Origin: Anaerolineae bacterium
GTDB lineage: Bacteria > Chloroflexota > Anaerolineae > Promineifilales > Promineifilaceae
DNA: 32,888 nucleotides
NCBI GenBank assembly: GCA_015486215.1
Contig: WFSA01000187.1
Location: 1-32,888 of the forward strand
Reading direction: 5' to 3'
Shown here: one piece after another, positions 236 through 31,101 of the stretch
How positions within the stretch are numbered: position 1 is the first letter of the stretch
Layout of the letters: each line of letters opens with the position of its first letter
Translations under genes and position numbers: made by a program
The notes under the pieces: model-generated
Databases searched by the model: none
What the model saw: the letters and a program-made list of their open reading frames with translations, nothing else
Told to the model about the DNA's origin: nothing

Positions 236-361
236 CAAGTAAGCAAGTTTGCAAGCAGGCATGTTTGCAAAATGCGGGTATGCAAGCAGGCAGATGTACT
301 TGCCGCTTGCAACCCTGCACACTTGCAACCCTGCACACTTGCACACTTGCATATTTGCACT
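236..361. repeat. 8-bp periodic tandem array forming a long imperfect inverted repeat
   Basis: The gap between the binding-protein gene and the ATPase gene is built from degenerate 8-bp units. The left half repeats GCAAG-type units (GCAAGTAA, GCAAGTTT, GCAAGCAG) and the right half (306-361) repeats the complementary CTTGCACA/CTTGCAAC type, including a 16-bp unit repeated exactly at 306-321 and 322-337. The halves can pair, so the transcript could form a long stem between the first two cistrons. Such a stem often keeps binding-protein mRNA more abundant than that of the membrane components; that role is inference. Confidence 0.7.
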
Positions 362-373
362 TCGAGGTGTCTT

Positions 374-1894: not shown

Positions 1895-1896
1895 TT

Positions 1897-2901: not shown

Positions 2902-2916
2902 GGCGACTCATGAAAA

Positions 2917-2977
2917 GGGCGACCCAGCGGGTCGCCCCTACCATATCGTCCCGTAGGGGCGACTCGCTGGGTCGCCC
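2917..2977. repeat. GGGCGACCC-type inverted repeat (25-bp arms)
   Basis: Arms at 2917-2941 and 2953-2977 match 24 of 25 bases with an 11-nt loop. The sequence begins GGGCGACCCAGCGGGTCGCC. It lies between the permease and the first MtnA-like gene and overlaps no coding region. It has no T-run, so it is more likely a dispersed intergenic repeat or an mRNA stabiliser than a classical terminator. Related GGGCGACC/GGTCGCCC segments occur inside the 150-bp elements near 19500 and 30200 and at 22268. Confidence 0.8.
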
Positions 2978-2994
2978 AAAATTTGGGAGAAGTT

Positions 2995-4101
2995 ATGAAT
3001 GTGTACGGTAAACATTATCGCACGATTTGGTTGAGTGAAGATGACCAAAACGTGGTGCAAATTATTGATCAGCGTCATTTGCCGCATAAATTTATTATCG
3101 AAGAGTTGACAACGGTTGACGAGATGGCGGTCGCTATCAAAGATATGCACATTCGCGGCGCAGGGCTTATCGGCGCGGCAGCTGGGTGGGGCATGTATTT
3201 AGCCGCTTTGCACGCTCCCGAAGATGGCTTTATGCAATCTTTGATTGCTGACGGGGACAGGTTGAAGGCGACACGCCCAACGGCCGTCAATCTCGCATGG
3301 GCCGTTGACCGCCAGATTGAAGCGATGGCGGCCAGCGCAGATGGTAAAGCGGCCAAAGTTGATCTTGCTCGGAAAACGGCCGTTGCCATCACCGACGAAG
3401 ATGCCGACTACTGCCGCCGCATCGGCGAGCATGGCGTTTCCATCATCAAAGAGATCAGCAAAAAGAAAAACGGTGAGACCGTCAACATCCTCACCCATTG
3501 TAACGCAGGCTGGCTCGCCTTTGTCGATTACGGCTCGGCGACCGCGCCAATGTATGCCGCCTATGATAAAGGGATTGACATTCACATCTGGGTAGACGAA
3601 ACCCGCCCCCGTAATCAGGGCGCACGCCTTACCGCATGGGAATTGGGGCAACATGGCATTCCGCATACCGTCATCGCTGACAATGTGGGCGGCCACCTCA
3701 TGCAGCACGGGCTGGTTGATATGGTCATCACTGGCACAGATCGCACCACCTACACCGGCGATGTCGGTAACAAAATCGGCACTTATTTGAAAGCATTAGC
3801 CGCCTTTGACAACGATGTCCCCTTCTACACCGCCTTACCCTCCTCAACATTTGATTGGGTCATGCGCGACGGGGTGAAGGAAGTCCCCATCGAACAGCGC
3901 GACGGCACGGAGGTACGCTATATTCAAGGAATGCACGACGGCGAAATAACGGCCGTTTTGCTCACCCCCGAAGACAGCCCCGCCGCCAATTACGCCTTCG
4001 ATGTAACCCCCGCCCGTCTGGTGACAGGCCTCATCACCGAACGCGGCATCTGTGATGCGTCGGAAGAGGGCGTGTTGGGTTTATATCCAGAGAAGAGATA
4101 G
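2995..4101 (+). CDS. MtnA-like aldose-1-phosphate isomerase (divergent paralogue)
   Basis: This 368-aa member of the MtnA/eIF2B-alpha-like family is expected to isomerise a 1-phospho-aldose to a 1-phospho-ketose. The catalytic pair is present: Cys169 in THCNAGWLA and Asp249 in GTDRTTYTGDVGNKIGTY. It differs from the canonical MtnA encoded at 6649: the substrate-site loop reads RGAGLIGAAAGWG rather than [13 protein letters not shown], and GTDR replaces GCDR. These changes suggest a different substrate, for example 5-deoxyribose 1-phosphate rather than 5-methylthioribose 1-phosphate, but this is inference. ATG 2995 is preceded by GGGAGAAG; a TTG at 2983 is less likely. It follows the importer genes and probably belongs to the same transcription unit. 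Confidence 0.85.
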   Translation: MNVYGKHYRTIWLSEDDQNVVQIIDQRHLPHKFIIEELTTVDEMAVAIKDMHIRGAGLIGAAAGWGMYLAALHAPEDGFMQSLIADGDRLKATRPTAVNLAWAVDRQIEAMAASADGKAAKVDLARKTAVAITDEDADYCRRIGEHGVSIIKEISKKKNGETVNILTHCNAGWLAFVDYGSATAPMYAAYDKGIDIHIWVDETRPRNQGARLTAWELGQHGIPHTVIADNVGGHLMQHGLVDMVITGTDRTTYTGDVGNKIGTYLKALAAFDNDVPFYTALPSSTFDWVMRDGVKEVPIEQRDGTEVRYIQGMHDGEITAVLLTPEDSPAANYAFDVTPARLVTGLITERGICDASEEGVLGLYPEKR

Positions 4102-4160
4102 AGAATGTTGGTGATTCTTCAAGAAGCTGAATTTTTTATCAAAAAAGAACTATCATCATT

Positions 4161-4397
4161 ATGACTTCTACTCATATGGAGCTTTCTATTAAACAAGCGG
4201 CAGACTTTCTCAATGTTTCACGGCCGTTTTTGGTGCAGTTATTAGAAAATGGAAAAATCCCTTTTCACAAAATCGGTACCCATCGGCGAGTCAAATCGAG
4301 CGATCTCATGGAATATAAACAAGAAATTGAGCAACAGCGATTACATACACTTGATGAACTGGCTGAACAGGCACAACGGTTAGACATGGGGTATTGA
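4161..4397 (+). CDS. Helix-turn-helix (excisionase-type) antitoxin
   Basis: A 78-aa protein with an excisionase/MerR-like DNA-binding domain. The core SIKQAADFLNVSRPFLVQLL followed by GKIPFHKIGTHRRVKSSDL is typical of the HTH_17 family, and the C-terminal tail (HTLDELAEQAQRLDMGY) is the type that binds a PIN toxin. It ends one base before the toxin gene starts, the normal antitoxin-toxin order. By family knowledge it would neutralise the toxin and autorepress the operon. Start 4161 has no strong ribosome site; ATG 4176 is an alternative. One ACGGCCGT palindrome at 4221 suggests long residence in this genome. Confidence 0.82.
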   Translation: MTSTHMELSIKQAADFLNVSRPFLVQLLENGKIPFHKIGTHRRVKSSDLMEYKQEIEQQRLHTLDELAEQAQRLDMGY

Positions 4398-4398
4398 T

Positions 4399-5107
4399 GT
4401 GAGAAAACTCATTGTCATTTATGATGCTTGTGTTTTATACCCTGCACCATTGCGAGATTTGTTAATGCACTTAGCTTTGACAACTCTGTTTCGTGCCAAA
4501 TGGAGTACCACAATTCACGAAGAATGGATTCGCAATGTTTTGAAAGTGCGTCCCGATCTGACACGGAAACAATTAGGGCGAACACGCACGCTTATGGATG
4601 CCCATGTGCAAGATGCCGTAGTTGAAGGATATGAGGCTTTGGTGGAAAGTATAAATTTTCCTGATCCAAATGATCGTCATGTTCTTGCCGCAGCTATTAT
4701 GAGTAAGGCGAGTTTGATTATTACATTTAATCTTAAAAATTTTCCACAAGCATCATTGAAATCTTACGGTATTAAGGCGCAGCATCCTGACGAATTTGTT
4801 ATGAGGTTGATGGATACAGCCCCTGACGATGTGTATACGGCCGTAAAAAGACACCGTGCTAGTATAACTTGGCCTAAGTTCTTAGATGATATACGCCGCC
4901 TGTATCGGGAATCGGAATTCCCGATACCTATTTATGGGAGTTGCGGGAATTCCGATTCCCGCAACAAATAACATATAAGGACTTCCGCCAGCGTGTACTA
5001 GTTTGAAAAATCCACCTAAAAATGTAACTGACTATCTGCATATTCTGGAACGGCAGGGATTATCTGCAAGCGTGGCACGGTTATGGGAATATGCAGATTT
5101 GATTTAA
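4399..5107 (+). pseudogene. PIN-domain toxin gene, 3' end interrupted by a short element
   Basis: The open frame 4399-4971 (GTG start, 190 aa) encodes a PIN-domain (PIN_3-like) ribonuclease with acidic residues at Asp9 (VIYDACVLYP), Glu42 (IHEEWIRN) and Asp92 (PDPNDRHVLAAAI). From residue 155 on, the sequence ITWPKFLDD... does not look like the family and comes from an inserted element. The lost C-terminus is still present downstream: 5003-5107 reads LKNPPKNVTDYLHILERQGL and on to a TAA. Removing 4864-5002 (139 bp, ending in a second CTAGT) joins RHRAS to LKNPP in frame and restores a normal tail. The present product has a foreign ~36-residue tail and may be inactive. The antitoxin is intact. 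Confidence 0.82.
4864..4997. mobile_element. 134-bp non-autonomous inverted-repeat element in the PIN gene
   Basis: The element is flanked by the 5-bp direct repeat CTAGT (4859-4863 and 4998-5002), which reads as a target-site duplication. The ends carry imperfect inverted repeats (about 18 of 24 matches between TTGGCCTAAGTTCTTAGATG and the reverse of the right end). The centre holds two palindromic arms containing GGGAATCGGAATTCCCG and CGGGAATTCCGATTCCCG at about 4906-4966. It encodes no protein and supplies a premature stop to the toxin gene. Confidence 0.65.
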
Positions 5108-5148
5108 TGTGATTTTACAGAGCGTAATCATTACGCAATGAAAAAAAG

Positions 5149-5260
5149 GTATCTTCTCAATAAATCGTGGACAAGACTTGACAAATTTCATCAGCACTTT
5201 ATTTTACACGAGTATCATTAGGAAAATTTGTCAAATCTCCCCAGAATACTGAGAAGATAC
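5149..5260 (-). mobile_element. Family A 112-bp MITE, copy 1
   Basis: Full-length 112-bp copy with the termini GTATCTTCTCA and TGAGAAGATAC and a perfect 8-bp target duplication AAAAAAAG (5141-5148 and 5261-5268). It sits directly before the mtnK ribosome-binding site, which lies partly in the right-hand target duplicate. In this orientation it carries TTGACA at 5177, 16 bp, then TATTTT, a plausible outward promoter toward mtnK. Confidence 0.9.
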
Positions 5261-5277
5261 AAAAAAAGGAGTATGCA

Positions 5278-6528
5278 ATGGATTACTATCCTCTTGATAC
5301 AACAACAGTAACTGAATATGTGAAAACACGTCCCGCATTGAAGGACTTTTTTCCAGAAGACGCAACGCTTGTAGCGCGGGAAGTGGGCGATGGCAATTTG
5401 AACTTCGTGTTTTTTGTTGAAAATGCGGACGATTTGACGAATTCTATCGTCGTGAAACAGGCATTGCCTTATTTGCGTGTGATTGGCGAATCGTGGCCGC
5501 TAACGCAAGAGCGCGTGCGGTATGAAACGCAAGCGTTGCGGAAGCAGTATGAAGCCGCTCCCGGACTGTCCCCAAAGGTGTATGACTATAATGATGAGAT
5601 GTCTACCTTGATTATGGAACATTTGCGGGAACATGAGATTATGCGTTTCCCGATGGTGGCGCGTAAACGCTTCCCCAAATTTGCCGATCACATCAGCACT
5701 TTTTTGGCGAACACCCTTTTCTACACCTCTGATTTATATATGACGGGCGAAGAAAAGAAGAAGTATATGGAACTGTTCACCAATGAAGAGCTGCGGAAAT
5801 TGCAGGAGGATTTCGTTTACACCAATCCGTACATGGATTCTGAGGAGAATAATTGGAATCCGTTGGTTGATGATGCGGTAACGGCCGTTCGCCAGAACGC
5901 CGAGCTAAAGATAGCCATCGCTGAAGCAAAACGGGCGTACACCACCCACGCCGAAGCCCTTATCCACGCCGATTTACACACTGGCTCCATCATGCTGAAT
6001 GAAGAAGATACACGGGTGATCGATCCCGAATTCGCCTTCTTTGGCCCGATGGGTTATGACATTGGTGCAGTATTGCAGAATCTGATTTTGAACTATCTTT
6101 CCCATTACGGACACACGCCAGACAAAGCCGAACGTGAAAGTTACCAAGCGTATATTTTGGAGACGGTCGCTGCTATTTGGAATGGATTTGCGGCTAAATT
6201 TGATACATTGTGGAAAGAAAATAATCGCGGTGATGCTGTTCCGGCCAAGTATTGGGAGTTCGAAGGCGGCGAAGAGGCGTTTGCTGAGTATCGGCGGCGG
6301 TATATTTTAAGGTTGTTGCGGGAAACGGCCGTTCACGGCGGCACAAAATTCCTGCGGCGGATGATGGGCATTGTTTCCGTCTGGGACATCAGCAGCATCG
6401 AAGATGAAGAGAAGCGGGCCGTTGCCGAACGGGCAGCCATCGCCATCGGCTCCCGCTGGCTGCTGGAAAAAGAGAGCTTCAACAGTATTGATGATATGCT
6501 CGCTATTGTGAAAGAAGAAACAGGTTGA
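5278..6528 (+). CDS. mtnK: 5-methylthioribose kinase
   Basis: This 416-aa protein phosphorylates C1 of 5-methylthioribose with ATP in the methionine-salvage pathway and is cytoplasmic. The MtnK signatures are clear: EVGDGNLNFVF near residues 35-45 (nucleotide loop), the catalytic loop HADLHTGSI at 230-238 with Asp232, and DPEFAFFGPMGYDIG at 249-263, the metal-binding DPE that replaces the DFG of kinases. Length is normal. ATG 5278 follows AAGGAG at 5266-5271. A family A MITE lies immediately upstream and may have replaced or altered the native promoter. With the MtnA homologues on both sides it starts the intracellular part of the pathway; 5-deoxyribose is a possible second substrate. Confidence 0.95.
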   Translation: MDYYPLDTTTVTEYVKTRPALKDFFPEDATLVAREVGDGNLNFVFFVENADDLTNSIVVKQALPYLRVIGESWPLTQERVRYETQALRKQYEAAPGLSPKVYDYNDEMSTLIMEHLREHEIMRFPMVARKRFPKFADHISTFLANTLFYTSDLYMTGEEKKKYMELFTNEELRKLQEDFVYTNPYMDSEENNWNPLVDDAVTAVRQNAELKIAIAEAKRAYTTHAEALIHADLHTGSIMLNEEDTRVIDPEFAFFGPMGYDIGAVLQNLILNYLSHYGHTPDKAERESYQAYILETVAAIWNGFAAKFDTLWKENNRGDAVPAKYWEFEGGEEAFAEYRRRYILRLLRETAVHGGTKFLRRMMGIVSVWDISSIEDEEKRAVAERAAIAIGSRWLLEKESFNSIDDMLAIVKEETG

Positions 6529-6648
6529 TAATGGATAATGAATAATTAACAATTAATAATGAAGTACGTTAACGCGTTATGGTATCGCGGAAGCAGTAAT
6601 ACTAAATGTGGCGACACTTAATAATTCATTATTCATTATTTTTCTACT
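6529..6648. repeat. AT-rich intergenic inverted repeat (TAATGAATAAT type)
   Basis: The mtnK-mtnA gap begins with ATGGATAATGAATAATTAAC and ends with the near-complementary TTAATAATTCATTATTCATT, separated by about 60 bp without recognisable features. The same vocabulary (AATGAATAATGAACAATT) recurs at 14650-14834, 25201-25262, 25919-25943 and 31014-31101, so it is a dispersed intergenic repeat. No clear promoter can be distinguished in it. Confidence 0.6.
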
Positions 6649-7707
6649 ATGAGCGCATTTAATAGTATCGGATGGGGTGAGGGCGGTGTTGTGCGGATGT
6701 TGGATCAGCGCAAGTTGCCGCATGAGACGGTTTATAACGATTATCATACCTATGGCGAAGTCGCGCAGGCGATTACGGATATGGTGATACGGGGTGCGCC
6801 GGCGATTGGGGCGGCGGCGGCGTATGGATTGGCGTTGACGGCGCATCGAACAACGGCCGTTTCCCCCGTCGCCCTCCGTGCCGAATTAGCAAAAGCGGCC
6901 GAACTGTTGAGAGCATCACGGCCAACGGCCGTAAACCTCTTTTGGGCGATAGATCGCATGACGAAAACGATCGCCGATCCTGCCCTCAACACCGTTTCCG
7001 CATTACAAACGGCAACCTTGTTTGAGGCCAACGCCATCGCCGCCGAAGATGTGGCGATTAACAAACAGATCGGGCAAAACGCCCAACCCCTCATCCCCGA
7101 CGAAGCGACCATCATCCATCATTGCAACACAGGCAGCTTGGCGACGGTTGATTATGGCACGGCATTAGGCATCATCCGCATGGCGCATGAACAGGGCAAA
7201 AAGATATTTGCTTTGCTGGATGAGACGCGCCCCCGCTTGCAAGGAGCGCGATTGTCGGCGTATGAATTGAAGGCGCAGGGCGTGCCGTTCAAAGTTATCG
7301 CCGACAGCGCATCAGGCCATTTTATGCGTACCATCGGCGTGGATTTATGCGTGGTCGGTTGTGATCGGGTGGCGGCAAATGGAGATACGGCTAATAAAAT
7401 CGGCACGTATAATTTGGCCGTTGTCGCCCGTGCAAACAATGTCCCCTTTTACGTTGCCGCGCCGACAACGACGATTGATATGGCGACGGCAACGGGGGAT
7501 GAGATTGAAATTGAGGAACGGCCGTCACGCGAAATTACCCACGTCGGCAATTGTCAAATCACCCCCGATGGTATAGAGGTCGGCAACCCTGCTTTTGATG
7601 TGACACCGAATGAGTATATAACGGCCGTTATCACTGAAAAAGGGATCGTCTATCCCCCATTCAAAGAAAATTTGGCAAAATTGATGCGGAGTGGTGAAAT
7701 AGCGTAA
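6649..7707 (+). CDS. mtnA: S-methyl-5-thioribose-1-phosphate isomerase
   Basis: This 352-aa enzyme converts 5-methylthioribose 1-phosphate to 5-methylthioribulose 1-phosphate. Family motifs are canonical: [15 protein letters not shown] (47-61), the catalytic Cys159 in [26 protein letters not shown] (191-202), and the catalytic Asp239 in [18 protein letters not shown]. It is the standard member of the family, in contrast to the divergent paralogue at 2995. No clear Shine-Dalgarno sequence precedes ATG 6649. It lies directly downstream of mtnK, the usual pairing, and uses the kinase product. Confidence 0.94.
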
Positions 7708-7768
7708 GTGACTGTCACGGGGCGAACGGACTTCGTTTACCCGAAACTACACGCCCCGTGATTGTCAC
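7708..7768. repeat. Inverted repeat after mtnA (17-bp arms)
   Basis: GTGACTGTCACGGGGCG (7708-7724) pairs with CGCCCCGTGATTGTCAC (7752-7768), 15 of 17 matches, immediately after the mtnA stop. A stable transcript hairpin is expected. No U-run follows, so termination is uncertain. It may be a REP-like sequence. Confidence 0.7.
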
Positions 7769-7821
7769 TTCTACCAAAATGAAACGGGTGTGTTTCATTT
7801 GCTTTAACAGTAGCGGAGACC

Positions 7822-7879
7822 GAGCTTGTCGAAGTCGTAGCGGCTTCTGCACTCGACCGCCTTTACCTTCGACAAGCTC
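7822..7879. repeat. Inverted repeat GAGCTTGTCGAAG / CTTCGACAAGCTC
   Basis: Perfect 13-bp arms at 7822-7834 and 7867-7879 flank a 32-nt loop. This is a common type of dispersed intergenic repeat in environmental bacteria. No coding potential. The 7708-8055 gap therefore holds three successive palindromic units (this one, 7708-7768 and the family B element). Confidence 0.65.
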
Positions 7880-7898
7880 AGGCGACGGCTATTCCTAA

Positions 7899-7988
7899 GG
7901 GAAGGTTCGTTTTTAACTTTGGACTTTCAGGTGACAGGCACTTGCCAAGTGCCTGTCACCTTGGCCACAGTTATTTATGAGTTTTCCC
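7899..7988 (+). mobile_element. Family B 90-bp element, copy 1
   Basis: This 90-bp element begins GGGAAGGTTCG and ends GAGTTTTCCC. It is flanked by TAA (7896-7898 and 7989-7991), a putative 3-bp target duplication. The centre is a near-perfect hairpin, GTGACAGGCACTTG and its complement separated by one base. Nearly identical copies lie at 14839 and 23123. Confidence 0.85.
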
Positions 7989-8055
7989 TAAGTAAATGAA
8001 ACACACCATTTTGATTTTGCAACCTCGCAACTCCGTAACCATACAAGGTGAAAAA

Positions 8056-8973
8056 ATGAGTAACAACAATTGGCTTACAGAAGCCAAAAACGTCGCACAA
8101 GGCATCCGCCGTCAAGTGCTGGCACATACGATTAAAAATAACGGCGGCTATTTGAGTCAAGCGTGCAGTTCATCCGAGATTTGGGCATCCCTTTACACCC
8201 GCATCCTGAACATCAGCGCGAGCGAAGCCCCGATGATACCCGCTCCTTTTCCCGGCGTTCCCAGCGCAGCGAATAAAAATTACTTTACGGGACAGGCGTA
8301 TAACGGCCGTAAATCCCCCGACCTTGACCGCTTTTTCCTTTCTCCTGTCCAATACGCCCTCGTTTTATACGCCACATTGGTCGAAGTCGGCCGCATGTCG
8401 CCCGAAGGATTGGCGCAATTTAACACCGATGGAAGCACCGTCGAAATGATCGGAGCCGAACATTCTCCCGGCCATGAAATCACGGCAGGCTCGCTCGGGC
8501 AGGCTCTCAGTCAGGTGGCTGGGATTGCATTTGCGCGGCGGAAGAAAGGGGAAAACGGCCGTAATTGGGTTTTCATGTCCGACGGCGAATTCCAAATTGG
8601 GCAAACATGGGAAGCGTTAGAGATTCTCAGCTTTTACAAGCTGAATAACGTCGCCGTCATCGTCGATGTCAACGGTCAGCAGGCCGACGGCGCGATGAAA
8701 GATGTGCTGAATATTGAACCGTTAGACGAGCGGCTGAAAGCGTTTGGCGCACACGTCATCAAAGTGGATGGTAATAATATAGAAGAGATAGTTGCCGCCT
8801 CAGAAGTTATTCCTGATGGCAAACCACTCGTCATCTTGGCGTACACCAGCCCGTATTGCGGCATTGACCTGCTCCAATCCCGCTTTCCCACCCTGCATTA
8901 TGTCCGTTTCAAGAGCGAAGAAGAACGAGCGCAGTATACAGAGTTACTAACAGAACTGGAGGCGGCATTATGA
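8056..8973 (+). CDS. Transketolase, N-terminal (TPP-binding) subunit
   Basis: This 305-aa protein corresponds to the thiamine-diphosphate-binding half of transketolase. The cofactor motif is SDGEFQIGQTWEAL (175-188) with the closing Asn206-Gly in VDVNGQQ. Further landmarks are AEHSPGHEITAGSLGQALS (134-152) and the N-terminal GGYLSQACSSSEIWASLY block. ATG 8056 follows AAGGTG at 8045. The stop overlaps the start of the C-terminal subunit by ATGA, so the two are translationally coupled and should form one alpha2beta2-type enzyme. Split transketolases are common in catabolic clusters (for example apulose-4-phosphate transketolase AptAB). Here it could cleave C2-C3 of a 1-substituted xylulose 5-phosphate, which is inference. 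Confidence 0.9.
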   Translation: MSNNNWLTEAKNVAQGIRRQVLAHTIKNNGGYLSQACSSSEIWASLYTRILNISASEAPMIPAPFPGVPSAANKNYFTGQAYNGRKSPDLDRFFLSPVQYALVLYATLVEVGRMSPEGLAQFNTDGSTVEMIGAEHSPGHEITAGSLGQALSQVAGIAFARRKKGENGRNWVFMSDGEFQIGQTWEALEILSFYKLNNVAVIVDVNGQQADGAMKDVLNIEPLDERLKAFGAHVIKVDGNNIEEIVAASEVIPDGKPLVILAYTSPYCGIDLLQSRFPTLHYVRFKSEEERAQYTELLTELEAAL

Positions 8974-9977
8974 AAACAATGAGCCGTGTTCACGCTAAAA
9001 AATTAGTCGAATGGGCGAAAGATAAGCCAGAAGTGTTGGTCTTGTCGGCCGATTTGACTAGCAATACCGAAGTCAAACTATTCCGCGAAGCGTACCCCGA
9101 CCGCTTTTTATCCATGGGGATGACCGAGCAGAATATCGTCAGCTTTGCCGGCGGGCTGGCACGCGAAGGGTTCGTCCCCTTCTTCCACACCTTCGCCATC
9201 TTTATTTACCGACGGGCATTGGATCAAATCTCAATGTCGGTGGCGTATCCCAATTTGAAAGTGCGCTTGGTCGGTTTTTTGCCAGGCATTATGACCCCCG
9301 GCGGCGCAACCCATCAGGCGACGGATGACATCGCCATTTTACGCGCTTTGCCCAATATGACCATCGTCGAGCCGGGCGATGCAAATGAGGTGGCGCAAGT
9401 TTTGGATAGTATCGAAGATATTGACGGCCCTGTTTACATCCGTCAATTGCGCGGTGAAGTGCCGATTTTGTTTGACGAAAATGAACCGATGCGGCTGGGG
9501 CGGGCACGGCCGTTACGCGAGGGGAGCGACATCACCCTGTTTTCTAGTGGAATTTGCACGGAGGAGGCGATGCGGGCAACGGCCGTTCTCCAAAAACGGG
9601 GCGTGTCCATCAACCATCTGCACGTTTCCACCCATAAACCATTCACCGATCCCGCCATTTTGGCCGCCGCCGGCCAGCCCAAATACGGCGTAATCACGAT
9701 GGAAAACCACACTATCGTCGGCGGACTGGGCAGCGAAGTGGCTGAGGTGATGGCCGAAGCGGGCGTGGGTAAAAAGCTGGTACGAATCGGTTTGCAAGAC
9801 ACTTACGCCCACGGTGCCAGCCGCCCCTATCTGATGCGGACGCACGGGCTGGATGCGATGGCATTGGTACAAAAAGCAGAAAAAATGGTCGGCGAAAAGC
9901 TAAATATCAGCGAAGAAGACCTTCAATCTGTCCGTTTGCAAGCGATGCACAGCGACGCGAAAGCGGAAGCACTGTAG
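8970..9977 (+). CDS. Transketolase, C-terminal (pyrimidine-binding) subunit
   Basis: This 335-aa subunit carries the PYR and C-terminal domains. The catalytic glutamate that activates thiamine diphosphate is Glu53 in SMGMTEQNIVSFAGGLA, and MTPGGATHQATDDIA (108-122) is the substrate/phosphate-loop region. It starts in a 4-bp ATGA overlap with the N-terminal subunit. Its last codons (AEAL) and the stop lie within a 47-bp sequence that recurs at 10707, just before the RLP gene, so the two genes were probably adjacent before the brnTA cassette came in. The natural acceptor and donor are unknown; central-pathway transketolases are usually single-chain proteins. Confidence 0.9.
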   Translation: MKTMSRVHAKKLVEWAKDKPEVLVLSADLTSNTEVKLFREAYPDRFLSMGMTEQNIVSFAGGLAREGFVPFFHTFAIFIYRRALDQISMSVAYPNLKVRLVGFLPGIMTPGGATHQATDDIAILRALPNMTIVEPGDANEVAQVLDSIEDIDGPVYIRQLRGEVPILFDENEPMRLGRARPLREGSDITLFSSGICTEEAMRATAVLQKRGVSINHLHVSTHKPFTDPAILAAAGQPKYGVITMENHTIVGGLGSEVAEVMAEAGVGKKLVRIGLQDTYAHGASRPYLMRTHGLDAMALVQKAEKMVGEKLNISEEDLQSVRLQAMHSDAKAEAL

Positions 9978-10011
9978 GTCAATTTTGCAAAATTGACTTA
10001 CAGATCGGAGA
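9965..10011 (+). repeat. 47-bp direct repeat, left copy, at the brnTA insertion
   Basis: Begins GGAAGCACTGT, the end of the transketolase gene, and ends GGAGA. It matches 10707-10753 at 40 of 47 positions without gaps. Each copy contains a 28-nt palindrome. The pair frames the brnTA cassette and marks it as inserted between two operon genes. Confidence 0.8.
9974..10001 (+). promoter_or_regulatory. Intercistronic 28-nt palindrome 1
   Basis: GTAGGTCAATTTTG is followed at once by its near-complement (13 of 14 pairs plus a G-T). The palindrome overlaps the transketolase stop codon. Similar 28-nt palindromes sit at 10716 and 11889, each just before the ribosome-binding site of the next gene. A role in mRNA stability, processing or translational control is inference; there is no T-run. 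Confidence 0.55.
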
Positions 10012-10050
10012 GCCATTTATCATCTTTCGTATAATAAGTATGATATAATT

Positions 10051-10365
10051 ATGGGATATTTGCGATTTAATTGAGATACGCAGAAAGCAGAAGAGAATAT
10101 CCGAAAGCATGGTGTAACTTTTGAGGAAGCACAGGATGTTTTCTATGATGATCGTGCAGTTGAATTTTACGATGATGAACATTCTGATTGGGAAGATCGT
10201 TTTCTTCTAATTGGTGTAAGTTCAAAATCTCGTTTACTGTTGATATGTCATTGTTATCGAGAAAATGATGACGTTGTTCGCATTATCTCAGCTAGAGTGG
10301 CAACTGAAAATGAATCTCAGCTGTATCTTCTCAGTATTCTGGGGAGACTTGACAAATTTTCCTAA
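10051..10365 (+). pseudogene. brnT: BrnT-family toxin gene with a nonsense codon and a MITE-derived 3' end
   Basis: The reading frame from ATG 10051 gives MGYLRFN, then TGA at 10072-10074, then DTQKAEENIRKHGVTFEEA..., the classic BrnT ribonuclease fold (KHGVTFEEAQDVF, EDRFLLIGVSS, RIISARVAT). BrnT proteins have Trp at the position of the TGA (FEWD), so one base change (TGG to TGA) broke the gene. No good downstream start exists. The 3' end is also altered: the family A MITE at 10323 replaces the last codons by LYLLSILGRLDKFS. Removing the MITE and one target duplicate restores ESQLYTG and a TAA shortly before brnA. Confidence 0.85.
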
Positions 10366-10434
10366 TAATACTTGTGTAAAATAAGGTGCTGATGACATTT
10401 GTCAACTCTTGTCCACGATTTATTGAGAAGATAC
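10323..10434 (+). mobile_element. Family A 112-bp MITE, copy 2 (inside brnT)
   Basis: Full-length copy with GTATCTTCTCA and TGAGAAGATAC ends and a perfect 8-bp target duplication TCTCAGCT (10315-10322 and 10435-10442). It lies across the 3' end of brnT and provides the stop codon now in frame (10363-10365). Confidence 0.93.
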
Positions 10435-10459
10435 TCTCAGCTTTATACAGGATAACAAT

Positions 10460-10678
10460 ATGAAAGACGAATATGACCTCTCAAAAATGAAATCAAGACC
10501 TAACCCCTATGCTAAACGTCTTAAAAAACAGGTGACATTGCGTATGAGCGAGCATGTCGTTGAGTATTTTAAAGAGATGGCTGGAGACACGGATATTCCA
10601 TATCAGAACCTAATCAATTTTTACCTTATAGATTGCGTAACTTCTAAACGGAAATTACAGATGGTATGGTCGTCATGA
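10460..10678 (+). CDS. brnA: BrnA-family antitoxin
   Basis: This 72-aa protein matches the BrnA/CopG-type ribbon-helix-helix antitoxin: MKDEYDLSKMKSRPNPYAKR at the start, the DNA-binding strand KKQVTLRMSEHVVEYFKEMA, then GIPYQ-like DIPYQNLINFYLIDCV. By family knowledge it binds BrnT and represses the operon. It follows the broken brnT in the usual order. With no working toxin it may be a free antitoxin or simply a remnant. No ACGGCCGT palindrome occurs in the cassette, in contrast to the flanking operon genes, which fits recent acquisition. Confidence 0.9.
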   Translation: MKDEYDLSKMKSRPNPYAKRLKKQVTLRMSEHVVEYFKEMAGDTDIPYQNLINFYLIDCVTSKRKLQMVWSS

Positions 10679-10706
10679 TTCTTGACAGCTAATGACAGCA
10701 AAAAGG

Positions 10707-10753
10707 GGAAGCACTGTGGGTCAATTTTCCAAAATTGACCCACACAGGGGAGA
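10707..10753 (+). repeat. 47-bp direct repeat, right copy, at the brnTA insertion
   Basis: Second copy of the 9965-10011 sequence. It repeats the last codons of the transketolase gene out of context (GGAAGCACTGT) and ends in the GGGGAGA that is the ribosome-binding site of the RLP gene. This copy probably represents the original transketolase-RLP junction. Confidence 0.8.
10716..10743 (+). promoter_or_regulatory. Intercistronic 28-nt palindrome 2
   Basis: GTGGGTCAATTTT and AAAATTGACCCAC form 13-bp arms with a 2-nt centre, ending four bases before the RLP Shine-Dalgarno sequence. Homologous to the palindromes at 9974 and 11889. Function not known. Confidence 0.55.
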
Positions 10754-10758
10754 AAATT

Positions 10759-11892
10759 ATGATACCACATACATCTTTAAACTTATCTGGTGAACGCTTT
10801 AATGTCATATATAAATTTCGTGGCGATGAGGCGACTGCGCGAGGAAAGGCTCGCGGTATCTGCTTTGAGCAGACGATTGAATTTCCGGCTGATTTAGTTG
10901 GGGATGATGATATTCGCGGACAGATTTTTGGCCGCGTGGAATCCTTTCGCCCATTAGACGATATTCATTTTGAAGCGACTGTCAGCTATGCGGCCGAGAG
11001 TTCTGGTTTTGAATTAACGCAGCTGCTCAATGTCATTTTGGGCAATAGCAGCATCAAGCCGGGCATTCGGGTGCAGCGATTGGAGTTGTCAGAGCGTTTG
11101 TTGGCGGCGTTCAAAGGGCCGCGCTTTGGGCGGGATGGATTGCGTGAGCGATTGGGGGTGAAGGAACGGCCGTTACTCGCCACCGCTCTCAAACCGATGG
11201 GACTAAGCCCCGAATCATTAGCCGATTACGCCTATCAATTCGCATTGGGGGGCATTGACATCATCAAAGACGATCATGGATTGGCAAACCAATCGTTCTC
11301 CCCGTTTAAGGAGCGGGTTGAACTATGCGCCGCCGCTGTCGCCCGTGCCAATGCAGAAACAGGATTTAACAGCATATATATGCCTAATCTTACTGCCCCT
11401 GCTGACCAAATTATGGATAAAGCCCGCTTTGCCAAACAGGCAGGTGCGGGCGGGTTGATGATCGCGCCTGGTTTGGCTGGTTTCGATGGGATGCGCCGTT
11501 TGGCAGATGATGACAATATCGCGTTGCCGATTTTGACTCATCCCGCTTTTCAGGGCAGTTTTGTCACATCTCCCGACAATGGCATCTCTCATTACACTCT
11601 TTTTGGGCAGATGGCACGATTGGCGGGAGCGGATGGAACGATCTTTCCTAATTATGGCGGCCGTTTTTCGTTTAGTCGGGATGAATGTGGCGAGATTGTG
11701 GAGGGAACGGCCGTTTCCATGCACAATCTCAAACCGATTTTCCCCGTTCCCGGCGGTGGAATGTATTTAGACAGCATTGCTGACATGTCTGCTTTTTATG
11801 GGCAAGATGTGATTTACCTTATCGGCGGCGGATTGCATAGAGGAGATGGTTTGGCCGAAACATGCCGCCGTTTTCGGCAATTGATTGCGTAG
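10759..11892 (+). CDS. RuBisCO-like protein (form IV), probable phospho-ketose isomerase or enolase
   Basis: This 377-aa protein is a RuBisCO large-subunit homologue that cannot be a normal carboxylase. The first catalytic lysine is kept (Lys145 in ATALKPMGLSPE), but the KPK motif is shortened to KPMG, so the second lysine is missing. The carbamylated lysine and neighbouring Asp are kept (Lys170, Asp172 in GGIDIIKDDHG), but the metal-binding Glu is His173. The loop-6 lysine is absent (GTIFPNYGGRFSFS). His261 (LTHPAFQGS) and the glycine-rich phosphate loops PGGGM and IGGGLHRGDG remain. Known RLPs act on 5-methylthioribulose-1-phosphate derivatives (enolase MtnW, or the 1,3-isomerase of Rhodospirillum rubrum) or on oxo-isoapionate phosphate. 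The mtnK/mtnA context favours the first. ATG 10759 follows GGGGAG. Confidence 0.9.
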   Translation: MIPHTSLNLSGERFNVIYKFRGDEATARGKARGICFEQTIEFPADLVGDDDIRGQIFGRVESFRPLDDIHFEATVSYAAESSGFELTQLLNVILGNSSIKPGIRVQRLELSERLLAAFKGPRFGRDGLRERLGVKERPLLATALKPMGLSPESLADYAYQFALGGIDIIKDDHGLANQSFSPFKERVELCAAAVARANAETGFNSIYMPNLTAPADQIMDKARFAKQAGAGGLMIAPGLAGFDGMRRLADDDNIALPILTHPAFQGSFVTSPDNGISHYTLFGQMARLAGADGTIFPNYGGRFSFSRDECGEIVEGTAVSMHNLKPIFPVPGGGMYLDSIADMSAFYGQDVIYLIGGGLHRGDGLAETCRRFRQLIA

Positions 11893-11916
11893 GACAAGTT
11901 TGCAAACTTGTCCTAC
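11889..11916 (+). promoter_or_regulatory. Intercistronic 28-nt palindrome 3
   Basis: Perfect 14-bp arms (GTAGGACAAGTTTG and complement) overlap the RLP stop codon and end just before the AAGGAAAAG ribosome site of the epimerase gene. Same layout as the palindromes at 9974 and 10716. Confidence 0.55.
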
Positions 11917-11926
11917 AAGGAAAAGT

Positions 11927-12586
11927 ATGAATATAAAAATTTCACCATCGTTGCTTTCATCTGATTTAACGCGGCTGGGAGAACAGGTAAAAGAGGCCGA
12001 AGCGGGCGGCGCGGAGTGGCTGCATATTGATGTGATGGACGGCCGTTTTGTCCCCTGGCTCACCTTCGGCGCACCCATCGTCAAAGCGTTGCGCCCCATC
12101 ACAGATATGGTGCTGGACGTGCATCTGCTCACCGCCAATCCAGAACGGCTCATCCCCGCTATCGCTGAGGCGGGCGCGGACATCATCACCGTGCAGGTGG
12201 AAGCGTGTACCCATCTGCACAATACCATTCAGCAGATCAAAAGTTTGGGCATCAAAGCGGGCGTTGCCCTCAATCCAGCCACCCCATTATCAACCATCAA
12301 GTGCATTGTGGAAGAGTTGGATTTGATCATGATTTTGGCAGTCGATCCCGGCTTTCAGGGAATGCCATCTTACGCCAAAAGTGTGTGGAAAGTGGCACGC
12401 GCCCGCAAAATGGTAGACGACTTTGGGCTGGAGAATGTGGACATACAGGTTGATGGCGGTATTAAAGCGAACAATATCGCTGAGTATGTGACGGCTGGGG
12501 CGACAGCTTTTGTGGCAGGATCGGCCGTTTTTAATGACAAAGAAAGCGTGGCAACAAACATCGCCACGTTACGAGAACAACTATAA
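11927..12586 (+). CDS. Ribulose-phosphate 3-epimerase family protein
   Basis: This 219-aa TIM-barrel protein has the metal-binding set of Rpe: His33 and Asp35 in HIDVMDGRF, His66 in LDVHLL, Asp176 in QVDGGI. Two positions near the substrate differ from typical Rpe: FVPN is FVPW (Trp44) and the loop normally SVNPGFGGQ reads AVDPGFQGM. The enzyme should invert C3 of a ketopentose 5-phosphate, and the changes suggest a modified substrate such as a 1-methylthio- or 1-deoxy-ketopentose 5-phosphate produced by the RLP. That is inference; it could also serve the normal pentose-phosphate pathway. ATG 11927 follows AAGGAAAAG; the open frame extends back to 11885 through a palindrome and is not used. 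Confidence 0.9.
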   Translation: MNIKISPSLLSSDLTRLGEQVKEAEAGGAEWLHIDVMDGRFVPWLTFGAPIVKALRPITDMVLDVHLLTANPERLIPAIAEAGADIITVQVEACTHLHNTIQQIKSLGIKAGVALNPATPLSTIKCIVEELDLIMILAVDPGFQGMPSYAKSVWKVARARKMVDDFGLENVDIQVDGGIKANNIAEYVTAGATAFVAGSAVFNDKESVATNIATLREQL

Positions 12587-12594
12587 GAATTTAA

Positions 12595-12706
12595 GTATCT
12601 TCTCAGTATTCTGCAGAGACTTGACAAATTTTCCTAATGGTACTCGTGTAAAATAAAGTGCTGATGAAATTTGTCAAGTCTTGTCCACGATTTATTGAGA
12701 AGATAA
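12595..12706 (+). mobile_element. Family A 112-bp MITE, copy 3
   Basis: 112-bp copy between the epimerase and lsrF-like genes. Its last base is changed (GAGAAGATAA). The target duplicates GAATTTAA (12587-12594) and GAGTTTAA (12707-12714) differ at one base. It is the most degenerate of the 112-bp copies at its boundary and so may be older. Confidence 0.85.
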
Positions 12707-12722
12707 GAGTTTAATAATAGAT

Positions 12723-12806
12723 GATCCGCAGATTATGCAGGTTTTCGCAGATTGGCAACATGGTTGCTTAAAGATAATCTGCGTGAATCTGCATAATCTG
12801 CGGATC
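12723..12806. repeat. GATCCGCAGATTATGCAG inverted repeat
   Basis: Perfect 18-bp arms at 12723-12740 and 12789-12806, with further pairing inside (CGCAGATT / ATAATCTGCG). It lies upstream of the lsrF-like gene and resembles the CGCAGATT-rich segments at 26907-26968 and 31880-31911. A dispersed intergenic repeat with no evident coding or promoter role. Confidence 0.75.
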
Positions 12807-12829
12807 AATTGAAATAAAGGAGAAAAATT

Positions 12830-13618
12830 ATGAACTGGGGTATGAAAAATAGAATGTCACGGATTTTTAATCCAGAGACGGGTAGAACATTGATGTTTGC
12901 AGTAGATCACGGTTACTTTATGGGGCCGACGACAGGGTTGGAGAATATCACCAAAACCGTCGATCCATTGCTGCCTTATGCGGACACGCTGATGCTGACC
13001 AGAGGCGCGTTGCGTAACTATATCGCGCCTGAAAAAGACACATCCATCATTATGCGCGTCTCTAGCGGCACGAGCATTTTGAATAAAAACTTACTGCACG
13101 AAGGATTATCCGTCTCTATGGAAGAGGCGTTGCGGATGAACGCATCGGCTGTTGCATTTTCCATCATGGTGGGGGCGGAGTTTGAACGGGATACGCTATT
13201 GGCGTTCTCAAGCTTAGTTGACCAAGCAGAACGGTACGGAATGCCGACATTGGCAGTAACGGCCGTTGGCAAAGGGCTAGAACGAGATGCCCGTTACTTG
13301 GGCTTGGCGAGCCGTATCGCCGCTGAATTGGGCGCACGCATCGTCAAAACGTATTATTGCGAAAATTTTGAACACATCACCAGCACCTGCCCTGTGCCCG
13401 TCGTCATTGCTGGCGGCAAGAAAGTGCCAGAGCAAGATGCGCTGACTACCGCTTATAAAGCGATCCAAGCGGGCGCGGCTGGTGTCGATATGGGACGCAA
13501 TATCTTCCAATCCGAAAGCCCAGTAGCGATGGTGCAAGCCGTCCGTGCCATCGTGCATGACAACGCCACACCAGATACAGCGTTTGAACTGTATAACGAT
13601 CTGACTCTTGGAGAATGA
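12830..13618 (+). CDS. LsrF-like class I aldolase/thiolase
   Basis: This 262-aa protein closely resembles E. coli LsrF, which thiolytically cleaves 3-hydroxy-5-phosphonooxypentane-2,4-dione with CoA to DHAP and acetyl-CoA in autoinducer-2 processing. Shared blocks include WGMKNRMSRIFNPETGRT, FAVDHGYFMGPTTGLE, VVIAGGKKVPEQDAL and GVDMGRNIFQS. The Schiff-base lysine is Lys173 in IVKTYY, equivalent to Lys203 of LsrF; the ~30-residue N-terminal extension of LsrF is absent. No lsrG or lsrK homologue is visible here. The next gene is a dehydrogenase whose C4 oxidation of 5-deoxyribulose 1-phosphate would generate exactly the LsrF substrate. A plain DhnA/FbaB-type aldolase role is the alternative. 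Start supported by AAAGGAG. Confidence 0.88.
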   Translation: MNWGMKNRMSRIFNPETGRTLMFAVDHGYFMGPTTGLENITKTVDPLLPYADTLMLTRGALRNYIAPEKDTSIIMRVSSGTSILNKNLLHEGLSVSMEEALRMNASAVAFSIMVGAEFERDTLLAFSSLVDQAERYGMPTLAVTAVGKGLERDARYLGLASRIAAELGARIVKTYYCENFEHITSTCPVPVVIAGGKKVPEQDALTTAYKAIQAGAAGVDMGRNIFQSESPVAMVQAVRAIVHDNATPDTAFELYNDLTLGE

Positions 13619-13619
13619 C

Positions 13620-14651
13620 ATGCGCGTTGCGATGTATTACAACAATAAAGATGTGCGTTTGGAAGAGATGGGCGTGCCTGAAATTGGGGCGGGCGAGGTG
13701 CTGGTGAAGGTTATCGCCAGCGGTGTTTGCGGCTCGGATGTGATGGAGTGGTATCGCATCAAAAAAGCCCCCATCGTTTTGGGGCATGAGGTGACGGGTG
13801 ACATCGCTGCTGTTGGCGAAGGGGTTGACGGGTTTACGGCCGGCGACCGCGTTGTGTTTACCCATCATGTGCCTTGCCACGATTGCCGCCACTGCCAAGC
13901 GGGACAGCAGACATTGTGCCACACATTGCACAATACCACATTTTATCCGGGCGGCTTTTCAGAATATGTGCGTGTGCCAAAAATCAATGTAGATAGGGGC
14001 GGTGTAATTAAATTGCCTGATTCTATGTCCTATGAGACGGGAACATTTACCGAACCGTTGGGTTGTGCCGTGCGTGGTCAACGCAAAATGGAGATGAAGC
14101 CGGGCGCGAGCGTTTTGGTGCTGGGCAGCGGTCTTTCTGGCTTGTTGCACATCAAATTGGCGATGGCATTGGGCGCAGGGCGCGTGGTGGCGACGGACAT
14201 CAGCGAATATCGGTTGAAAGCGGCCGTTGATGCGGGTGCGGAACTGTCCTTCAACGCCCTAGAAGATGGATTGGTCGAGCGGCTGATCGAAGCGAACGAT
14301 GGACGCGGCTATGATCAGGTGATCGTTTGCACGGCCGTTCCCATCGCCTTCCAACAAGCCCTCCAAGCGGCCGACGCGGGCGGCGTGGTGCTGCTCTACG
14401 CCATCAACACGCCGGGCACAGAAGTCCCCTTCGCCATCTACGACTTCTATCACAAAGGGATCACGCTGATGAACACCTATGGCGCAAGTCCATTGGATTT
14501 GCAAGAGGCGTTGGCGTTGCTGCAACACGGCCGTGTGGAAGTTGATTCACTCATCACCCATCGGCTGCCCTTAGCCGAAACGGTTGAAGGATTCCAACTA
14601 ACGGTAAAAGCACAAAATTCGATGAAAGTAATCATCGAACCGCAGAAATAA
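13620..14651 (+). CDS. Zinc-dependent alcohol dehydrogenase (sorbitol/threonine dehydrogenase type)
   Basis: This 343-aa medium-chain dehydrogenase has catalytic zinc ligands Cys37 (GVCGSD) and His56-Glu57 (GHEVTG) plus Glu145 (FTEPLGCA). Four structural-zinc cysteines are at 86, 89, 92 and 100, and the NAD(P)-binding loop is VLGSGLSGL (168-176) followed by ATDISEYRL. It begins two bases after the lsrF-like stop, with GGAG within the preceding gene, so the two are coupled. Polyol/ketose dehydrogenases of this group oxidise secondary alcohols. I infer oxidation at C4 of the 1-phospho-ketose from MtnA; reduction of a released aldehyde is the alternative. It is the last gene of the metabolic run. 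Confidence 0.9.
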   Translation: MRVAMYYNNKDVRLEEMGVPEIGAGEVLVKVIASGVCGSDVMEWYRIKKAPIVLGHEVTGDIAAVGEGVDGFTAGDRVVFTHHVPCHDCRHCQAGQQTLCHTLHNTTFYPGGFSEYVRVPKINVDRGGVIKLPDSMSYETGTFTEPLGCAVRGQRKMEMKPGASVLVLGSGLSGLLHIKLAMALGAGRVVATDISEYRLKAAVDAGAELSFNALEDGLVERLIEANDGRGYDQVIVCTAVPIAFQQALQAADAGGVVLLYAINTPGTEVPFAIYDFYHKGITLMNTYGASPLDLQEALALLQHGRVEVDSLITHRLPLAETVEGFQLTVKAQNSMKVIIEPQK

Positions 14652-19661: not shown

Positions 19662-21827
19662 ATGTTATCCAAACGAAACCTTGCTGTACTGTTGATGCTG
19701 CTGTTGAGCATGTTGTTTGTTGCTTGCGGTGGTGATACAGAAGAAACGGCCGTTGAAGAATCACCAGCGGCAGTTGAAGAAGCACCCGCAGAGGATGCAC
19801 CCGCAGAGGAAGCACCCGCAGAGGAAGCACCCGCAGAAGAAGTTGCCCCTGCTGTCGAAGGCGACTGTGGTGATGAAGGCGTGTTCTGTGTTGGCCTCGT
19901 CACTGACGTTGGCGAAATTGATGATAAATCCTTCAACCAATCCGCTTGGGAAGGCGTATTACGCGCCCAAGAGGAATTAGGCGCACAGGTTGATTATATC
20001 GAAACTGGCGATGCAAAAGATTACGCATCCAACATCAGTTTATTTGCTGAGAACGGATACAATGTCATTGTCACCGTTGGTTTTGCGATGGGCGAAGCGA
20101 CTGCCGTAGCCGCATCCGAATACCCTGACATCACCTTCATCGGTGTTGACCAATTCCAAGGCTGGGCATTCGATGATGATACCAGCAATGACATCCCCAA
20201 TCTCTCTGGCCTCATTTTCCACGAAGAGCAATCTGGCTTCTTGGCCGGCGCATTAGCCGCAATGATGACTGAAACAGGCAAAGTTGGCGCAGTGTTAGGC
20301 ACAGACCTCGTTCCCCCCGTTGTCAATTTCAAAGAAGGGTACGAAGCAGGCGCACTATACATAAATCCTGATATCGAACTGATCTCCACCTTCCACCCTG
20401 GCGGTATGGATGTTGCGTTCACCGATCCAGAATGGGGCGCGACGACAGCACGCCAAGCGTTGGATCAAGGGGTTGATGTTATCTTTGGTGCCGGCGGTAA
20501 AACGGGCAATGGCGCATTGATTGAAGTGGCAGCCGAAGAAGGTGCACTTTGCATCGGTGTTGATTCTGACCAATGGGAAACTGTTCCCGAAGCACATAAC
20601 TGCCTCATCTCCAGCGCGATGAAACTCATCATGCCCGGCGTGTTTGACCTTGTAAGTGCTGCCAGAAATGGCTCTTTTGAAGCTGGCAATTTCTTCGGTG
20701 GCTCTGGCTTAGCCGATTTCCATGATTTTGCTGATATGGTTCCGCAAGAAGTGAAAGATGAGCTGGAAGCGATTGATGTTGGTTTGAAAGACGGCTCCAT
20801 CATTCCCGGCGAAACAGTACGCATGGATGCCCCCGACATGCCCGAAGAAAGCGTTGTGGCCGTTATGGATGGCGAATGTGGCGAAGAAGGCGTTTTCTGT
20901 GTTGGTCTTGTGACTGATGTTGGCGAAATCGACGACAAATCCTTCAATCAATCCGCTTGGGAAGGCGCATTACGCGCCCAAGAGGAATTAGGCGCACAGG
21001 TTGATTATATTGAAACTGGCGACGCAAAAGATTACGCCTCTAATATCGCCTTGTTTGCCGAGGGTGACTACAACGTCATCGTGACGGTTGGCTTTGCGAT
21101 GGGCGAAGCGACTGCTGCTGCCGCCGTGGAATATCCCGAGATCAATTTTATTGGTGTTGACCAATTCCAAGGCTGGGCATTTGATGACGATACTAGCAAC
21201 GACATCCCCAACCTTATCGGTCTGATCTTCCACGAAGACCAATCTGGCTTCTTGGCTGGCGCATTGGCCGCGATGATGACCGAAAGTGGCAAAATTGGTG
21301 CTGTGTTAGGCACAGACCTCGTTCCCCCCGTTGTAGCGTTCAAGGAAGGGTACGAAGCGGGTGCATTGTATATCAATCCTGATATTGAATTGATCTCCAC
21401 CTTCCACCCTGGCGGTATGGATGTTGCTTTCACCGACCCAGAATGGGGCGCGACGACAGCACGCCAAGCGTTGGATCAAGGGGTTGATGTTATCTTTGGT
21501 GCCGGCGGTAAAACGGGCAATGGCGCATTGATTGAAGTGGCAGCCGAAGAAGGCGCACTTTGCATTGGTGTTGATTCTGACCAATGGGAAACTGTCCCTG
21601 AAGCACATAACTGCCTCATCTCCAGCGCGATGAAATTGATCACGCCCGGCGTGTTCAACCTCGTGAATGATTCTCTGCAAGGCTCTTTTGCAGCAGGCAA
21701 CTACTTCGGCGGTTCTGGTTTAGCTCCATTCCACGACTTTGACGATGCTATTCCGCAAGATGTGAAAGATAAATTGGAAGCGATTGATGCTGGTTTGAAA
21801 GATGGCTCTATCGAAACTGGATATTAA
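19662..21827 (+). CDS. BMP/PnrA-family nucleoside-binding lipoprotein with two tandem binding domains
   Basis: This 721-aa lipoprotein has a signal peptide with lipobox LFVACGG (lipidated Cys22), then an acidic Ala/Glu/Pro linker encoded by 15-bp tandem repeats (19784-19845). Two complete BMP (PnrA/Med-like) domains follow, at about residues 67-403 and 404-721. Both carry GVFCVGLVTDVGEIDDKSFN, VIVTVGFAMGEATA, FIGVDQFQGWAFDDDTSNDI, QSGFLAGALAAMMTE and VIFGAGGKTGNGALIEVAAE. The repeat period is exactly 1011 bp (337 codons) and parts are almost identical in DNA. Known BMP proteins have one domain and bind purine nucleosides for an ABC importer; no such importer is adjacent. ATG 19662 has AAAGGAG and AAGG upstream. 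Only the linker contains an ACGGCCGT site. Confidence 0.93.
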   Translation: MLSKRNLAVLLMLLLSMLFVACGGDTEETAVEESPAAVEEAPAEDAPAEEAPAEEAPAEEVAPAVEGDCGDEGVFCVGLVTDVGEIDDKSFNQSAWEGVLRAQEELGAQVDYIETGDAKDYASNISLFAENGYNVIVTVGFAMGEATAVAASEYPDITFIGVDQFQGWAFDDDTSNDIPNLSGLIFHEEQSGFLAGALAAMMTETGKVGAVLGTDLVPPVVNFKEGYEAGALYINPDIELISTFHPGGMDVAFTDPEWGATTARQALDQGVDVIFGAGGKTGNGALIEVAAEEGALCIGVDSDQWETVPEAHNCLISSAMKLIMPGVFDLVSAARNGSFEAGNFFGGSGLADFHDFADMVPQEVKDELEAIDVGLKDGSIIPGETVRMDAPDMPEESVVAVMDGECGEEGVFCVGLVTDVGEIDDKSFNQSAWEGALRAQEELGAQVDYIETGDAKDYASNIALFAEGDYNVIVTVGFAMGEATAAAAVEYPEINFIGVDQFQGWAFDDDTSNDIPNLIGLIFHEDQSGFLAGALAAMMTESGKIGAVLGTDLVPPVVAFKEGYEAGALYINPDIELISTFHPGGMDVAFTDPEWGATTARQALDQGVDVIFGAGGKTGNGALIEVAAEEGALCIGVDSDQWETVPEAHNCLISSAMKLITPGVFNLVNDSLQGSFAAGNYFGGSGLAPFHDFDDAIPQDVKDKLEAIDAGLKDGSIETGY

Positions 21828-21880: not shown

Positions 21881-21919
21881 AAAAAAAGCGTTGCACAGGT
21901 ATTGTGCAACGCTTTTTTT
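21881..21919. terminator. Intrinsic, probably bidirectional terminator
   Basis: An A-run (21881-21887), stem GCGTTGCACA (21888-21897), 5-nt loop, complementary TGTGCAACGC (21903-21912) and a T-run of seven. It ends the BMP-protein transcript on the + strand, and the A-run allows function for transcripts from the right as well. Confidence 0.9.
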
Positions 21920-31013: not shown

Positions 31014-31101
31014 AATAATGAATAATGAATAATGAATAATGAAGGTTTAATAATGAATAATGAAGGGTGTGCTCTATTCATTATTCCCAATTTATTAATC
31101 A
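31014..31101. repeat. AATAATGAATAATGAA intergenic repeat
   Basis: A stretch of repeated AATAATGAATAATGAA on the left and complementary TTCATTATTCCC and TTAATCATTATT on the right, between ccmA and ccmB. Same repeat vocabulary as 6529-6648 and 25201-25262. It can form a weak hairpin. Confidence 0.6.

Follow-up and report, generated by a model that had tools for sequence, protein, structure and literature searches.

An apparently lineage-specific in-frame doubling of a BMP/PnrA-type binding domain within one Anaerolineae lipoprotein

The window, that is, the whole 32,888-nucleotide stretch of DNA analysed here (contig WFSA01000187.1 of Anaerolineae bacterium assembly GCA_015486215.1), carries on its forward strand an intact open reading frame (19662–21827) with an ATG start, 721 codons and zero internal stops, encoding a two-domain BMP/PnrA-type lipoprotein of 721 residues. 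Pfam PF02608 matched two stretches of this single chain (322.5 bits against a curated cut-off of 24.1), a sequence match that assigns the protein to the BMP/PnrA family; our genome search placed the stretches at 19896–20687 and 20907–21656, and the two copies repeat with a period of exactly 1011 bp. These results confirm the two complete BMP domains in one chain, with a 1011-bp period, described in the initial annotation. Weak matches to Methyltransf_4/TrmB at residues 465–501 were dropped, since they span about 30 residues within a well-folded BMP domain and form no independent stretch; the NCBIfam model ABC_BMP_B6 scored 105.7 bits, under its cut-off of 400, and hence we claim no vitamin B6 role.

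The chain begins with a signal peptide (19662–19727, + strand) that was read from the sequence and ends in LLSMLFVAC, with a lipobox-like FVA-C whose cysteine, Cys22, lies at 19725–19727. Of the 32 relatives in the alignment, at least 90% keep A21 and C22, and the protein thus carries the lipoprotein-type signal of the BMP/PnrA family, with predicted lipidation. An acidic, E/A/P-rich low-complexity tether follows (19728–19859; TRF, with pLDDT below 50 at residues 23–42 and 44–61), containing a 15-bp tandem repeat at 19779–19842 (TRF). Domain 1 (D1, residues 67–384, 19860–20813; Pfam, tree and AlphaFold2 model) is joined to domain 2 (D2, residues 404–721, 20871–21824; Pfam, tree and VIA-align) by a 19-residue linker (residues 385–403, 20814–20870) that is predicted to be disordered (pLDDT below 50 at 384–402), and a reading of the linker sequence ahead of D2 revealed no signal peptide or lipobox. 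A single N-terminal signal helix (residues 4–21) and no permease domain were found in the chain by Pfam and AlphaFold2. Directly 3′ of the gene, a consensus scan detected a strong intrinsic-terminator-like hairpin on the + strand with 18 pairs and a T tail (21881–21919).

Elsewhere in the window, a cluster at 272–14651 encodes a ribose-type ABC ATPase and permease, two S-methyl-5-thioribose-1-phosphate isomerases (MtnA), an S-methyl-5-thioribose kinase (TIGR01767, 500 bits), a split transketolase, a ribulose-phosphate epimerase, a Zn-dehydrogenase, a RuBisCO-like protein scoring under all NCBIfam cut-offs and an LsrF-like thiolase scoring above its cut-off (408 bits); the gene content resembles that of an island for the catabolism of methylthioribose or a related pentose. 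At 31014–31064, a seven-fold AATAATG tandem repeat separates a ccmB-like gene from an ABC ATPase gene in a cytochrome c assembly cluster.

We then compared D1 with D2, which align without gaps at 89.3% identity in protein and 85.5% in DNA (dN 0.069, dS 0.60); these rates indicate that both domains have been kept under constraint. The copies differ at 34 residues, of which 11 are derived in D1, 11 are derived in D2 and 12 are unclear, and comparison with orthologues from other genera finds synonymous sites close to saturation. Silent differences between the copies are not randomly placed: up to 37 consecutive synonymous codons are identical (p = 0.0002 in a repeated permutation test, in which the synonymous comparison sites were permuted and the longest identical run was scored). 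The corresponding patch lies at 20380–20624 on the D1 side and, offset by 1011 bp, at 21391–21635 on the D2 side (both on the + strand), and consists of exact runs of 37, 116, 29 and 36 bp. Positions 20380–20619 are 97.5% identical to the offset copy (234/240), with the longest exact match of 116 bp at 20427–20542, in agreement with the stretch of near-identical DNA noted in the initial annotation; outside the patch, 31–72% of synonymous sites differ in each 40-codon window. Local constraint does not explain the patch, since the patch windows are as diverged as the remainder of the gene when compared with two orthologues (L045 and L046), and the patch looks like the product of a later gene conversion. 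As negative controls, the old two-domain genes L159 (p = 0.997) and L139 (p = 0.95) gave no conversion signal in the same run test, whereas L155 (p = 0.0008), L158 (p = 0.0026) and L149 (p = 0.0038) behaved like the window gene. Of the "recent duplication or continuing gene conversion" initially proposed, the conversion part thus fits the patch, but the doubling itself, with a dS of about 0.6, is not very recent; the patch alone is recent.

The origin of the doubling was investigated with a maximum-likelihood phylogeny built from 89 BMP domains. D1 and D2 group together as sisters at 100/100 support, within a set of single-domain orthologues that belong to other genera, which indicates that the doubling arose in the organism's own lineage and supports a lineage-specific in-frame tandem duplication of the whole BMP domain. 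The nearest orthologue, from an Anaerolineae MAG (G062), has a single domain, as do the orthologues, at 65–76% identity, from further genera in the family. Genomes labelled Promineifilum are among the relatives, which places the window in an uncultured member of the Chloroflexota from that family-level group. An older duplication, later homogenised over its full length, is the counter-reading to this gene-tree logic and keeps a small residual probability. In its broader form, the two-domain state would be ancestral and lost in most lineages, with conversion within the protein making D1 and D2 look like sisters; the conversion-like patches in the window gene, L155, L158 and L149 are in line with it, as is L158, whose second domain is D1-like while its relative L159 retains a diverged D2. 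We consider this rather improbable, given that nearly all orthologues are single-domain proteins, among them the ones from the closest genera and from G005, a congener of the doubled G025, that D1 and D2 are evenly diverged apart from the patch, with no recent homogenisation, and that the older two-domain BMP genes tested lack a conversion signal.

The same data bear on whether the assembler joined two single-domain genes or strain variants, a concern that a draft, metagenome-like assembly of 341 contigs naturally raises. The joint keeps the reading frame and is interrupted by neither a stop codon nor intergenic sequence nor another signal peptide; the copies differ all along their length (dS about 0.6) and group together rather than with different species; and similar doublings occur in other, independent assemblies. 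An assembly artefact therefore appears very unlikely from the sequence. Among the genome contigs searched, a set from which the own genome and very near genomes may be absent, we found no second assembly of the same species; the viral contigs searched held no relative of the doubled protein, and matches in the plasmid records searched were all below 60% identity.

Structural comparison suggests that each domain adopts the two-lobed periplasmic-binding fold. The AlphaFold2 model has a mean pLDDT of 84; given its pTM of 0.53, it does not fix how the two domains are placed relative to each other. Among the structures listed, the best matches cover D2, whose predicted fold aligned with C. thermocellum Lbp bound to guanosine (7x0r) at a VIA-align Z of 36.0 over 289 residues (2.2 Å rmsd), with BmpD bound to adenosine at Z 35.2 and with T. 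pallidum PnrA bound to inosine at Z 34.9; these matches to nucleoside-bound PnrA, BmpD and Lbp span 289–296 residues (Z 35–36), and the best match of D1 itself was 4pev (Z 31.9). All ten nucleoside-pocket residues of BmpA (D19, D24, F27, D98, F151, F176, A200, V224, D225 and K242; PMC13325309) are present in both D1 and D2 by alignment, including the aromatic sandwich and the ribose-contacting Asp and Lys of a nucleoside pocket. A nucleoside is accordingly the probable ligand, although BMP-type pockets also take other ligands.

The two domains could instead have diverged for different ligands, as in GlnPQ of Lactococcus lactis, whose tandem binding domains differ in specificity (PMC8025302). 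The 34 residue differences give some room for this, and one of them, N222 in D1 against A559 in D2, adjoins pocket residue F223 (alanine is ancestral, being present in 12 of 12 relatives). The ten named pocket residues, however, are identical between D1 and D2, many of the differences fall in the C-terminal part, and dN/dS is low; we regard specialisation as unlikely.

We next considered the gene neighbourhood. A homologous permease gene lies directly 3′ on the same strand in 36 of the 54 scorable orthologues, most of which show the full order of binding protein (SBP), permease, permease and ATPase; the other 18 have no adjacent permease. The window gene is an orphan: upstream is a DUF3467 gene on the other strand, and downstream the terminator-like hairpin is followed by ksgA, also on the other strand. 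Relatives keep the block of phosphoribosyltransferase-like, G5-3D protein and ksgA genes with no BMP gene alongside. The window gene is thus not encoded with cognate ABC permeases and an ATPase, a usual feature of the BMP/PnrA family rather than a strict requirement. Within the same genome, an ATPase gene is found on contig C314 together with genes for the cognate permeases, which are 76% and 71% identical to their G062 counterparts; a BMP gene was sought beside these permeases and not found in this fragmented draft of 341 contigs, in which a second SBP gene may have gone unassembled, and the expected SBP position on C314 is taken by an unrelated, divergent frame of 657 codons. Pairing of the window protein with the C314 importer, from which its gene lies apart, is suggested by orthology. 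Two-domain orthologues adjoin permeases in G025 (a complete operon) and in Anaerolineaceae 4572_78 (permeases seen to the contig end), which indicates that SBP doubling and this transporter are compatible; in the window gene, unlike in G025 or 4572_78, the doubling accompanies relocation.

An orphan gene of this kind might encode a sensor or decoy, the doubled protein having left its operon to serve ligand sensing or surface capture with no feeding of an importer. The lack of an adjacent permease in those 18 orthologues as well would agree with this, as would the fusion of some BMP domains of the class to signalling domains (TIR in L107, Ser/Thr kinase in L142). On the other hand, the genome has retained the permeases, and no protein in it other than the window protein is closely homologous to the SBP paired with them in relatives; we therefore give a sensor or decoy role a low probability.

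The protein was further compared with known systems. Each domain matches the BMP/PnrA lipoproteins (T. pallidum PnrA/TmpC, S. pneumoniae PnrA, B. burgdorferi BmpA/BmpD and C. thermocellum Lbp) in fold and pocket residues, a lipoprotein signal is common to both, and orthologues of the window gene sit with two permeases and an ATPase; the window protein differs in having two domain copies per chain and a gene outside the operon. GlnPQ, the closest analogue studied, likewise has two binding domains per chain, a short linker (14 aa in GlnPQ; PMC8025302) and one importer type, but its domains belong to another SBP class, differ from each other in ligand and are fused to the transmembrane subunit, whereas in the window two near-identical domains form a lipoprotein of their own. 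With no such fusion in its chain, the window protein may work like GlnPQ but is not a GlnPQ. The tandem domains of GlnPQ bind independently, without cooperativity, and the tandem arrangement has no effect on ligand binding itself, but linker length affects transport (PMC8025302). By analogy, any gain from a second site would more probably lie in capacity or delivery than in cooperativity.

Two-domain BMP proteins are not confined to the window. Older Anaerolineae examples (e.g. C23 in the same genome, 708 aa) likewise have two PF02608 domains in a lipoprotein-sized chain, and the C23 gene, unlike the window gene, adjoins its permeases. In this second set, which is common in the class, the domains are 50–73% identical and each most resembles the domain that holds the same position in proteins of other species, which marks this doubling as old and separate. 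Within this old family, L158 holds a D1-like domain at the D2 position, as if D1 had overwritten the D2 that L159 retains.

A best-hit test, which asks whether the closest match of each domain in the sample is its partner in the same chain and therefore depends on sampling, identified nine sister-like two-domain proteins in the sampled Chloroflexota (the window protein L044, L074, L141, L146, L147, L148, L149, L155 and L164); these are sister-like pairs rather than proven independent events, at least four of which have support from the tree. In it, G025 (100/99), 4572_78 (100/99) and, in another subfamily, G031 (100/97) each show a separate sister pair of domains, and G005, congeneric with G025, has one domain. 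In four of the nine (L141, L146, L147 and L164), the domains are about 99% identical (98.0–99.3% in DNA) with clustered differences, a pattern that may reflect very recent doubling, conversion or assembly effects. The initial view that typical BMP proteins have one domain holds for nearly all orthologues of the window gene, but in the class two-domain BMP proteins are common. Copy number does vary among relatives between one- and two-domain forms, and no protein with more than two BMP domains was seen among the doubled genes surveyed; homogenisation signals in other doubled BMP genes lend the proposed recombination-prone locus weak support. Doubling is thus real yet recurrent, a fairly ordinary variation in the class and of moderate novelty. 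Our literature search, which covered few subscription papers, turned up the GlnPQ tandem domains and no report of doubled BMP proteins.

BMP domains also occur in other composite frames. At L107:4912–6930, an orthologue of the window gene and a TIR domain share one open frame (read stop to stop), and at L142:5170–8070 (− strand) a Ser/Thr protein kinase, a Peripla_BP_6 and a BMP domain in one frame resemble a receptor kinase that carries a pair of binding-protein domains. Mixed multi-SBP proteins occur in Chloroflexota as well, with BMP fused in single frames to Phosphonate-bd, SBP_bac_3, SBP_bac_5 and SBP_bac_8 domains (L111, L126, L141, L143, L144 and L145).

Taken together, we consider it probable that a lineage-specific doubling produced an anchored, two-site nucleoside-type SBP serving a distant importer, with its copies kept alike by purifying selection and conversion. 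An in-frame tandem duplication would have turned a single-domain BMP/PnrA-type lipoprotein into a two-domain one, which after export would be anchored by its N-terminal lipid; D1 and D2 would bind one and the same nucleoside, or similar ones, for handover to the two-permease/ATPase ABC importer on C314. The benefit would lie in more binding sites per anchor, and higher nucleoside capture by two sites is plausible; purifying selection and occasional gene conversion would hold D1 and D2 alike.

More tentatively, and with somewhat less than even confidence, the BMP domain of Anaerolineae may have been doubled repeatedly within single genes, with copies kept alike by conversion, so that SBP valency would be an evolvable and repeatedly selected trait, and relocation out of the operon would free the doubled gene for expression separately from its importer. 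One orthologous importer system occurs here with single-domain and with several separately doubled SBPs, inside and outside operons, and this offers a natural comparison set for the role of a second, nearly identical site, and hence for asking what certain importers gain from anchors that bear several binding domains.
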